Assembly: GCA_023488925.1 (NCBI GenBank)
Contig: JAMDDA010000084.1
Span: 1 to 11,401, forward strand
Direction: 5' to 3'
Source of the DNA: Actinomycetota bacterium
GTDB taxonomy: Bacteria; Actinomycetota; Thermoleophilia; RBG-16-64-13
Length of the DNA: 11,401 nt
Within the stretch, counting starts at the first letter, position 1, and every line of letters starts with the position of its first letter. Positions 5,994 through 9,663 of the stretch are shown piece after piece. The position numbers and the translations under genes are program-made. A model generated the notes under the pieces. It worked only from the letters and a program-made list of their open reading frames with translations, was not told the origin of the DNA and searched no databases.

Positions 5994-6047
5994 GTCTGTC
6001 TCCTCGGGTCGGGGTGGTCGATCGCCTGCAGCGGGTGGATCGAGCCG

Positions 6048-6079
6048 CGGGTGTATAATCCGGCGGGTGTATAATCCGG
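6048..6079 (+). promoter_or_regulatory. Perfect 16-bp tandem duplication carrying two consensus TATAAT boxes
   Basis: The 16-mer cgggtgtataatccgg is present twice without a gap (6048-6063 and 6064-6079). Each copy holds a perfect TATAAT, at 6054-6059 and 6070-6075. The downstream box ends seven bases before the ATG at 6083, which would yield a leaderless mRNA; the upstream box would give a leader of about 16 bases. The heptamer gcgggtg recurs at 6031, 6047 and 6063 with the same 16-base step. No consensus -35 is visible. No ribosome binding site precedes 6083, which supports the leaderless reading. Confidence 0.75.
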
Positions 6080-6082
6080 CCT

Positions 6083-7713: not shown

Positions 7714-7760
7714 GCTGCCTGCGCCGGGCCCGCTGCCTGCGCCGGGCCCGCTGCCTGCGC
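7714..7760. repeat. 18-bp tandem repeat, 2.6 copies
   Basis: Units gctgcctgcgccgggccc occur at 7714-7731 and 7732-7749 without mismatch, followed by a partial unit to 7760. Each junction forms the 8-bp palindrome cgggcccg. The repeat abuts the stop codon of the small minus-strand gene at 7761 and follows the tRNA terminator region, so it is 3' flanking DNA for both. It may serve as a structured transcript end, but this is unproven. Confidence 0.8.
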
Positions 7761-7904
7761 TCACCCCTTCTTCGCGGCTCTCTCCTGCCAGGTGGTGGTC
7801 CCCTGCGTGCAGCGTCCGGTCGGCTCGTGATAGTACACGCAGTTCTTGCGCTGGGACCGGTCGGCATGACACGGTTTGCCGGGCTGTGACGTCTTGTCGC
7901 TCAT
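7761..7904 (-). CDS. Small Cys/His protein of unknown function (47 residues)
   Basis: A 47-residue, strongly basic, soluble peptide. The core PCHADRSQRKNCVYYHEPTGRC holds Cys12-His13, Cys22, His26 and Cys32, enough to bind one zinc or a small cluster, followed by TQGTTTWQERAAKKG. I do not recognise the family. The frame opens further upstream (to 8069), but a good promoter with -10 box lies just before this ATG: TATGAT ends seven bases away and no ribosome binding site is present. The short leaderless form is therefore preferred. It is divergent from another small Cys-rich gene at 8087. The balance of charged, Cys and aromatic residues and the promoter favour a real gene, but its size leaves doubt. 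Confidence 0.65.
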   Translation of the reverse strand: MSDKTSQPGKPCHADRSQRKNCVYYHEPTGRCTQGTTTWQERAAKKG

Positions 7905-7911
7905 GGCCCTG

Positions 7912-7940
7912 ATCATACTGCAGGCGGGCCCGCGCGCCAA
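7912..7940 (-). promoter_or_regulatory. Promoter of the 47-residue gene, leaderless layout
   Basis: On the minus strand TTGGCG (7940-7935) and TATGAT (7917-7912) are separated by 17 bases, and TATGAT ends seven bases before the ATG at 7904. The predicted start of transcription falls on or next to the ATG. Confidence 0.6.
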
Positions 7941-8018
7941 TGTCGCCGACCGGCTCGGTCCCCCCGGTGCTCCCGAAAAGTATTTGCTGCAATTTGCGGA
8001 TAACGTCCGGGCAGACCG

Positions 8019-8047
8019 TTGCGCCAACCGGATAGTGACGTTACGGT
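8019..8047 (+). promoter_or_regulatory. Promoter of the 67-residue Cys-rich gene
   Basis: TTGCGC (8019-8024), a 17-base spacer and TACGGT (8042-8047) form a reasonable sigma-70-type promoter. Transcription would start near 8054, giving a leader of about 33 bases that contains the purine-rich ribosome binding region before the GTG at 8087. The 182-bp gap (7905-8086) between the two small divergent genes is locally less GC-rich and holds both promoters. Confidence 0.5.
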
Positions 8048-8086
8048 AGATATCCGCCAGCCGGTCCACTGAGGGAGAGGGGAGAG

Positions 8087-8290
8087 GTGCCGTCTGCGAT
8101 CGTTTTCGAGCCGGAATGCCGGACGTGCTTCTTCGGGGTCGAGCAGCTGTGCTGCCTGAATGTCCAGGGTCGCGGGTGTCCTACCTACCGTCCTCTCAAG
8201 GTGGAGGCGGGAGAAACCGCTCCGACGGTGGTTCCTCCCCGGTCCGAGTGGGCCGTCACTACGCGCCGGGAGCCGCGGCGCTATCTCTGA
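8087..8290 (+). CDS. Small Cys-rich protein of unknown function (67 residues)
   Basis: 67 residues from a GTG start with the purine run gagggagagggga (8071-8083) just upstream as ribosome binding site. The N-terminal half has the pattern ECRTCFFGVEQLCC, then GRGCPTYRP: Cys at 11, 14, 22, 23 and 31. A CxxC pair plus three further Cys suggests a zinc or iron-sulfur site. The C-terminal half is Pro/Arg-rich and probably disordered. I do not recognise the family. There is no signal peptide. It ends just before an 11-bp repeat array and converges on lipB. Confidence 0.7.
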   Translation: MPSAIVFEPECRTCFFGVEQLCCLNVQGRGCPTYRPLKVEAGETAPTVVPPRSEWAVTTRREPRRYL

Positions 8291-8316
8291 CGTTTCAGGC
8301 GTTCCCCCCGGTGCGC

Positions 8317-8530
8317 GAGCGCTCGTCGAGCGCTCGTCGAGCGCGGGTGAAGTGGGCGGCGAGCCCCCGTGAAATGCCGGTGAAACGCCCGTGGCCGTGA
8401 AGCGCCGGTGAAGTGCGCGTCGAGCCCCCGTGAAGCGCCGGTGAAGTGCGCGTCGAGCCCCCGGCAAGCCGGCTCCGTTCGATCGTCGAGTAATGTCAAG
8501 TGCCCATCAGGCGCCCATCAAGCGCCCGTC
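8317..8530. repeat. Array with 11-bp period, 18 full units plus two irregular ones
   Basis: Reading from 8317 in steps of 11 gives gagcgctcgtc twice, then gagcgcgggtg, aagtgggcggc, gagcccccgtg, aaatgccggtg and aaacgcccgtg. After a 6-base stub (8394-8399) come aagcgccggtg, aagtgcgcgtc and gagcccccgtg, and this trio is repeated (8433-8465) with a changed end. The rhythm continues with one 10-base unit and ends with aagtgcccatc, aggcgcccatc and aagcgcccgtc (8498-8530). Consensus is roughly RAGYGCCCGTS. The last unit overlaps the stop and final codons of lipB. There are no spacers and no coding constraint (11 is not a multiple of 3). It lies between two convergent genes. Confidence 0.85.
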
Positions 8531-9240
8531 AGGTCTGCAATCTGGCGCAGAGTGGCGGGTTGCAGGGGCGCGAGCGCGATACCGAAAACCTCGGCGAAGA
8601 TCTGCACGTATCGTGACTTGAGCTCCTCCATGGACGGAGCCGAGCCCGTGAGCTCGGCGATGCTGGTTTGCCGGAGTCCGTGTTCCCCACACGAGACGAT
8701 GAGGTCGAAAAGAGCGAGGTCGAGAGACACGTTTAGTGACGTGCCGTGGCTGGCGACCCAGCGCTCGCAGCGGAGGCCGACGGAGGCGATCTTGTCGCCC
8801 GCCACGTAGAGGCCGGGTCTACCGAGGCTCCGCTCCGCGACGATGCCCAGGTCGGCGAGAAGGCGCACGAGCACTTCCTCCAGCCCGCGGACGTAGCGGC
8901 GCAGGTCGCGGCCGGGGATGGGCATGACGGGGTAGGCCACGAGCTGCCCGGGGGCGTGGAGGGTGGCGGCCCCGCCGCGCTCCGAGTGCACCACTTCGAC
9001 CGGTTTGCCGTAGGCCACGGCTTCGCCGCGCAGGTCCGCGAGGCCGGCCCGGCTGCCGAGCGTGATCACGACTGGGTGCTCCAGAACGAGCAGAGCGCCC
9101 GGCAGGAGCCCGCCCGCCACCGCCCGCCGGAGGCGCCGCTGCAGTTCCTGAGCCTCCCGGTAGGGGACGATGCCGAGATCGAAGGGGCGGATCGGAGCAA
9201 TGGCGGGCCGGGTGGTCGTCGTATTCGGGGACGTGTGCAT
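8518..9240 (-). CDS. lipB: Lipoyl(octanoyl)-[acyl-carrier-protein]:protein N-octanoyltransferase LipB
   Basis: 240 residues, normal LipB length plus a short N-terminal extension. It moves octanoyl groups from acyl carrier protein to the lysine of lipoyl domains of 2-oxoacid dehydrogenases or GcvH, in the cytoplasm. Motifs in order: LEHPVVITLGSRA (~53-65), SERGGAATLHAPGQLVAYPVM (86-106), GDKIASVGLR (~148-157, catalytic Lys150), ASHGTSLNV (~163-171) and LIVSCGEHGLRQTSI (~180-194, catalytic Cys184). Small departures are LHAPGQ for the usual YHGPGQ and IVSCG for IVPCG. The start at 9240 is chosen because the longer open frame upstream lacks LipB sequence. The ribosome binding site is weak (GAGG eleven bases upstream). 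No lipA is in the window. Confidence 0.93.
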   Translation of the reverse strand: MHTSPNTTTTRPAIAPIRPFDLGIVPYREAQELQRRLRRAVAGGLLPGALLVLEHPVVITLGSRAGLADLRGEAVAYGKPVEVVHSERGGAATLHAPGQLVAYPVMPIPGRDLRRYVRGLEEVLVRLLADLGIVAERSLGRPGLYVAGDKIASVGLRCERWVASHGTSLNVSLDLALFDLIVSCGEHGLRQTSIAELTGSAPSMEELKSRYVQIFAEVFGIALAPLQPATLRQIADLTGA

Positions 9241-9287
9241 GTGCGGGGTAGCCTCGGGAGCAGTCGGGAACGAGGGTCTGTCGGCGA

Positions 9288-9293
9288 AGATTA
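9288..9293 (-). promoter_or_regulatory. Weak candidate -10 box for lipB
   Basis: TAATCT on the minus strand lies about 47 bases before the lipB ATG. The hexamer 17 bases further upstream is TGGCCG, only 3/6 to the -35 consensus. The rest of the 204-bp divergent gap 9241-9444 holds no gene. On the plus strand TTGAGG (9348) and TGAGAGACT (9369-9377) could serve the zinc-ribbon gene at 9445, also weakly. Confidence 0.3.
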
Positions 9294-9444
9294 CACCGAG
9301 GCGCAGCCTTCGGCCAGAGGGCCTCCGCTCGAAGGACGGCCGGCCTCTTGAGGCGACGCAGCAAGCTGTGAGAGACTTGACTCCACGGAATCGAGCCCGG
9401 TTCCGGGCGCCGTCGGTGTCGAATCTCGACCGGAGGAGCTGAGA

Positions 9445-9663
9445 GTGGCGAAGAAGTATGACCCGCTGTGGGAGATCGTCGGCGAGAAGGTGCCCCTGCA
9501 GGGCGCGGAGAGGGACGTGGACGCTCTCTGCCCCATCTGTCATGTCAGGCTGCACCTCGGTCTCGAGATACAGGCCGGCGATGCCGTGAACTGCGGGCTG
9601 TGTGGAGCGGCTCTGCGTGTCGTGTCCCACGACCTTGGCCTGGGTCTCGAGCTCGAGGAGTGA
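9445..9663 (+). CDS. Small zinc-ribbon protein resembling LysW
   Basis: 72 residues from a GTG with GGAGGAG (9432-9438) six bases upstream. After an N-terminal stretch MAKKYDPLWEIVGEKV comes a ribbon: C29-P-I-C32, then GLEIQAGDAVNC50-G-L-C53-GAALRVVSHDLGLGLELEE. The two CxxC pairs, the central GD-V-C and the VVS-D-L-acidic tail match the layout of LysW, the amino-group carrier of the lysine/arginine AAA-variant pathway. However, the diagnostic C-terminal EDWGE with its modified terminal Glu is missing; the protein ends in ELEE. No lys genes are nearby. It is therefore best called a LysW-like zinc ribbon of unknown role. Confidence 0.8.
   Translation: MAKKYDPLWEIVGEKVPLQGAERDVDALCPICHVRLHLGLEIQAGDAVNCGLCGAALRVVSHDLGLGLELEE

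Follow-up and report, generated by a model that had tools for sequence, protein, structure and literature searches.

Direct repeats in tandem, spaced by 11 bp, are described in bacteria as binding sites of regulators. In the accessible parts of PMC6988585, PMC6283541 and PMC7866108, the PHO boxes of Streptomyces are built from 11-nt direct repeats whose core is GTTCACC, and the sites of GlnR consist of 11-mers in tandem. CarH operators, in the accessible text of PMC9304148, are tandem 11-bp repeats of the form nnnnTnnACAn, up to five of them, overlapping promoter elements; this paper was the only relevant one found in our searches of the literature on 11-bp intergenic repeats and on repeats between convergent genes. 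Two further kinds of intergenic repeat are described. The TAACTGA heptamer direct repeats of Beggiatoaceae, whose unit is fixed, make up 169 sets within a single genome, most of them directly upstream of starts (PMC4679880), and a satellite survey (PMC6749651) reports for M. ruminantium 36 mutually unrelated, unique satellites across the genome, at least half of them noncoding.

The array treated here lies at the 3′ end of lipB in a window of 11,401 nucleotides, the whole stretch of DNA that was analysed, which is contig C109 of an actinobacterial MAG (a 1.25-Mb bin, 65% complete). With the PHO boxes and GlnR sites bound by OmpR-family regulators of actinobacteria it has in common the 11-bp direct-repeat spacing, and some of its units contain TTCAC; unlike them it has 18 units rather than a few and no full core, does not sit at a promoter, and fits the motif no better than chance. 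It resembles the CarH/CarA operators in being a tandem series of 11-bp direct repeats that all present the same DNA face, with TnnAC in many of its units, and differs in that the full TnnACA is confined to a single 10-bp unit. Like the Beggiatoaceae repeats as excerpted in PMC4679880 it consists of intergenic direct repeats; unlike them it is single, in one place and at 3′ ends. With the bacterial minisatellites and satellites in the accessible parts of PMC6749651 it shares head-to-tail units, an intergenic position and a local occurrence, although its unit is shorter than that of most arrays of its own genome and more degenerate, and the example in that source has longer repeats. A first reading from the sequence only had noted no described element of this form; in the literature searched that stands for the form as a whole, but not for tandem 11-bp direct-repeat operators, which are known (PHO boxes, CarH).

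The array and its neighbouring genes

TRF, lag identity and a profile fit place the array at 8320–8533 on the minus strand, with the consensus CTTSACGGGCG on the lipB strand. The sequence-only reading had counted 18 units of 11 bp, a 6-base stub and a 10-base unit over 214 bases; the profile fit returned the same count in this frame, one unit being barely recognisable. Combined with direct reading, the fit gives 17 exact 11-mers (14 distinct), one degenerate 11-bp stretch outside the profile (8479–8469, the barely recognisable unit), a 10-bp unit (8491..8500, that is 8500–8491 on the lipB strand) and a 6-bp stub that interrupts the 11-bp phase (8386..8391, 8391–8386 on the lipB strand), so that 18 × 11 + 10 + 6 = 214 bp. 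The units abut without unique spacers, bar the stub and the degenerate unit, and we reject a CRISPR array, as had been done from the sequence.

The head-to-tail copies are beyond chance: the summed lag score was matched by 0 of 2000 dinucleotide shuffles at any period from 5 to 19. Over 8317–8530 identity is 0.57 at lag 11, 0.51 at lag 22 and 0.50 at lag 33, and 0.17–0.38 at the remaining lags to 59. The beat had been called strict, which is right for the spacing and wrong for the sequence, since the mean pairwise identity of units is 60%. This low identity with the spacing largely kept would make the array either old or held in register. Adjacent units are no more similar than when their order is randomised (p 0.35; p 0.10 at lag 3), so the gradient expected of recent stepwise slippage is not seen. 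TRF reports period 33 at 8324–8463 and period-11 pieces at 8316–8344, 8366–8393, 8395–8446 and 8502–8533. A higher-order repeat of three units had also been proposed, and the exact 36-bp run at lag 33 from 8395 makes this 33-bp duplication real; TRF and the profile fit put its two copies at 8397–8462 (minus strand).

The flanking genes are convergent, as first read. On the plus strand, 8087–8290 encodes a small Cys-rich protein of 67 aa with a GTG start; it has an orthologue with 50% identity in a same-genus genome (G001), and a Pfam search found no family for it, while the NCBIfam scan at this place took in only overlapping ORFs in other frames. On the minus strand the lipoyl(octanoyl) transferase gene lipB, identified by LipB models, is listed as an ORF at 8518–9630, and the models cover only residues ~140–351, which puts the probable true start close to 9240. 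The lipB stop (8518–8520) lies inside the array, which overlaps the gene by 10–13 bp; read on the lipB strand, the array's opening units thus supply the final codons of the gene together with its stop, in agreement with the sequence-only reading. The nearest named relatives of this lipB are in actinobacterial MAGs, Actinomycetota bacterium Soudan_30 and Gaiellales bacterium AS06rmzACSIP_123.

Several other features of the window were recorded. Upstream of the small Cys-rich gene, the 25-mer CGAAAAGTATTTGCTGCAATTTGCG (7974–7998) is identical in the congener and absent from 19 other genomes at up to 3 mismatches; it is perhaps a candidate regulatory element. Divergent from lipB, on the plus strand at 9445–9663, is a small zinc-ribbon-like ORF (CPIC...CGLC), a relative of which was seen by eye to be encoded in the stretch examined at the family locus L024. 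TRF also finds a 28-bp unit in 4.3 copies with 97% matches close to the contig start (66–186), an 18-bp unit × 2.6 (7714–7760) and a 16-bp unit × 2.1 (6047–6080), the latter two with 100% matches. The Rfam scan at gathering scores gave a tRNA-Arg as its sole match.

Distribution in relatives and across the genome

In G001, the sole same-genus genome returned, the same two genes likewise converge; their stops are 54 bp apart, and there is no array in this interval. Period 11 was not among the three best periods at any of 15 further family lipB loci, two of which are poor tests: L017 has 174 bp of downstream DNA, and the L024 match is partial, so that the DNA downstream of it is not that of lipB. 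As a DNA query against 17 other family genomes the array gave, among the matches listed, only 22–44 bp matches with E about 0.007–0.008, in 3 genomes; the whole of its own genome, searched with it, returned the array itself and no other copy. With up to 3 mismatches, the two-unit consensus matched 6 times in the own genome, always within the array; across 12 other genomes it matched 22 times and the backwards control 16 times. The exact two-unit string, also with up to 3 mismatches, found in the own genome the two array copies, and single matches in 4 of 20 other genomes, against 2 for the backwards control. These searches of the own genome and its relatives yield no credible second copy. The sequence-only reading had held that an array found only here, with neither period nor consensus kept in relatives, would be a slippage product without a role, and as far as the relatives examined allow this is the pattern observed; the array is locus- and lineage-specific rather than conserved, on a comparison with one congener.

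The own-genome sample comprised 443,507 bases in 61 of 221 contigs, 36% of the assembly (L032–L051, L094–L133 and the window). Its strongest period-11 places are the array (1.72) and a site in L037 near 14,780 (1.50), where TRF gives a 33-bp GC-rich unit that is missing from the noncoding list of our crude gene caller and was therefore called coding; no other place exceeds 1.27, and the highest values in G001 and in the first family sample are 1.24 and 1.22, respectively. At a TRF score of 40 the own sample yields five rows of period 11: four belong to the array, and the fifth, elsewhere, has fewer than 2.5 copies. The 35 noncoding arrays of the sample have periods of 14–45 bp, most commonly 18; the lipB array is entered under its 33-bp unit, and in the noncoding list made with the crude caller it has the longest TRF span. 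It had been argued that 11 bp is close to one helical turn. The periods of the other 34 (14–45 bp) weaken this argument: tandem duplication is a theme of this genome and the helical turn is not. Since period 11 is otherwise rare here, the lipB array is not a typical member of the arrays that surround it.

Unrelated tandem arrays are in excess in this genome sample. At a TRF score of at least 50 there are 35 noncoding arrays in 84,346 bases, whereas 12 relatives together have 9 in 168,683 bases, a rate at which the own sample would be expected to hold 4.5 (Fisher p 4e-10); one shuffle per noncoding piece left 0 arrays in the own sample and 2 in the relatives. Overlapping TRF rows were merged to the best-scoring one, and the base counts for the own sample exclude its 15,913 N bases. 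Own samples were whole contigs, while those of relatives were mostly slices of up to 20 kb. The crude caller did not work on G009 and worked only in part on G002 and G005, so that coding DNA of these genomes entered the noncoding count. A comparison free of gene calls, with 300 bp trimmed per end, is therefore safer: it gives 61 arrays in 410,507 bases for the own sample, 11 in 252,200 for G001 and 25 in 484,638 for 11 family genomes, or 14.9, 4.4 and 5.2 per 100 kb. Coding arrays are also raised (38 against 16.4 expected, p 8e-4), which argues against an excess confined to noncoding DNA; when multiples of 3 are dropped from the periods and ends are trimmed, the difference from G001 reaches only p 0.05; and the small sample of G010, with 3 noncoding arrays in 4.4 kb, speaks against the excess being unique. 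By gap type the own rates per kb are 0.42 in convergent (5 arrays), 0.55 in divergent (9) and 0.29 in tandem gaps (13), figures that rest on the 27 arrays, out of 35, for which a gene was called on each side; the lipB array itself was filed under tandem gaps because the crude caller missed the small Cys-rich gene. Between same-strand genes, by crude calls, L051:573–648 and L111:2558–2612 each hold three tandem copies of a unit containing TGA and ATG (23 bp and 18 bp, respectively). The lipB stop within the array looks similar.

Operator, terminator and assembly-artefact readings

Tandem 11-bp direct repeats being a known operator form (PHO boxes, GlnR sites and CarH operators, in the portions of the sources available), the array could be an operator with many sites, bound by a regulator that recognises such repeats on one DNA face, of the OmpR/PhoP winged-helix type or a CarH-type MerR protein. 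We rate this as quite improbable. Four fitted units read CTTCACC or TTTCACC, six of the seven core bases, but the full GTTCACC occurs in 0 of 18, and the PhoP mean was reached by 783 of 3000 column permutations (1099 of 5000 with 17 units), so the core is not above chance. Pairs GTTCACC-N4-GTTCACC with up to 2 mismatches exceed the backwards control in 11 of 13 genomes (10 against 4 in the own genome), a result uninformative on the array. For CarH, 12 of 18 units contain the shorter TnnAC, with a mean reached by 58 of 3000 column permutations in a test chosen after seeing the units, and the 10-bp unit at 8500–8491, which was outside the permutation test, has the full motif as TTGACA; yet TnnACA occurs in 0 of 18 11-bp units, and the CarH mean was reached by 268 of 3000. 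In the accessible parts of the sources the described operators are 2–5 repeats at promoters, whereas this array lies between 3′ ends, the sole promoter-like match of a sigma-70 consensus scan in 7900–8700 falls outside it (7940–7912), and the array is missing from the congener. Overall the motif tests are negative or weak, and a place between 3′ ends is unsuited to an operator. A landing strip for a nucleoid protein is not supported either. We consider very unlikely, too, a phased one-face docking strip newly acquired in the lineage and acting at convergent 3′ ends through an OmpR-type winged-helix or CarH-like regulator that reads TnnAC.

That the array fills the convergent interval would suit a transcription terminator or a buffer between the two genes that works by RNA structure or by a series of pause sites, and a convergent-transcription buffer had been among the first suggestions. 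The array also has local palindromes (CGAGCGCTCG), and the 54-bp interval of the congener contains, by reading, an inverted repeat CCCCGC...GCGGGG. We nevertheless judge this role unlikely: in 7900–8700 there is no site with a GC-rich hairpin and a T run that would qualify as an intrinsic terminator, folding energy is ordinary for the composition, with z −1.25 and 0.14 for the two strands, and convergent gaps are not clearly favoured for arrays in this genome at the rate given above. Least likely of all is an artefact of the metagenome bin. Short contigs and tandem repeats are prone to assembly error, but the array is mid-contig between genes that also converge in the congener, and its 14 distinct unit sequences are not what a loop in the assembly would produce; the copy number of the 33-bp duplicate could be off.

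Probable minisatellite origin and its meaning

We regard the array as very probably a local, lineage-specific, degenerate minisatellite, in the sense of tandem repeats with a unit of ~10–60 bp, and the suggestion of a minisatellite made by slippage, offered at first among others, gains support from its absence at the congener locus and from the tandem-array excess in the genome. On this account a short sequence near the lipB 3′ end or in the convergent intergenic stretch would have been the seed, and slippage during replication, our presumed mechanism, or unequal recombination would have multiplied it in tandem; point mutation would then have made the units drift, while local re-duplication may have produced the 33-bp unit and the perfect 11-bp copies at 8316–8344. 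Growth would have taken place between two convergent stop codons, where length is probably little constrained, until the array also came to supply the last lipB codons and stop, presumably with no sequence-specific role. Against this count the adjacent units that are not more alike, the length of the TRF span, the low unit identity at a largely kept spacing, the atypical period of 11 and the narrow comparison, which covered one congener and a single strain of the species.

Small tandem duplications are many in this genome, and the array has the look of one more of them and not of a conserved working element. Alone it matters little, and an 11-bp beat does not by itself imply a protein landing strip. 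Of more interest is the excess of minisatellites in the lineage, several-fold over congener and family in the sampled part of the genome and with a few arrays across gene ends; if confirmed in complete genomes, it would be a natural case of a raised tandem-duplication rate or of relaxed intergenic selection.
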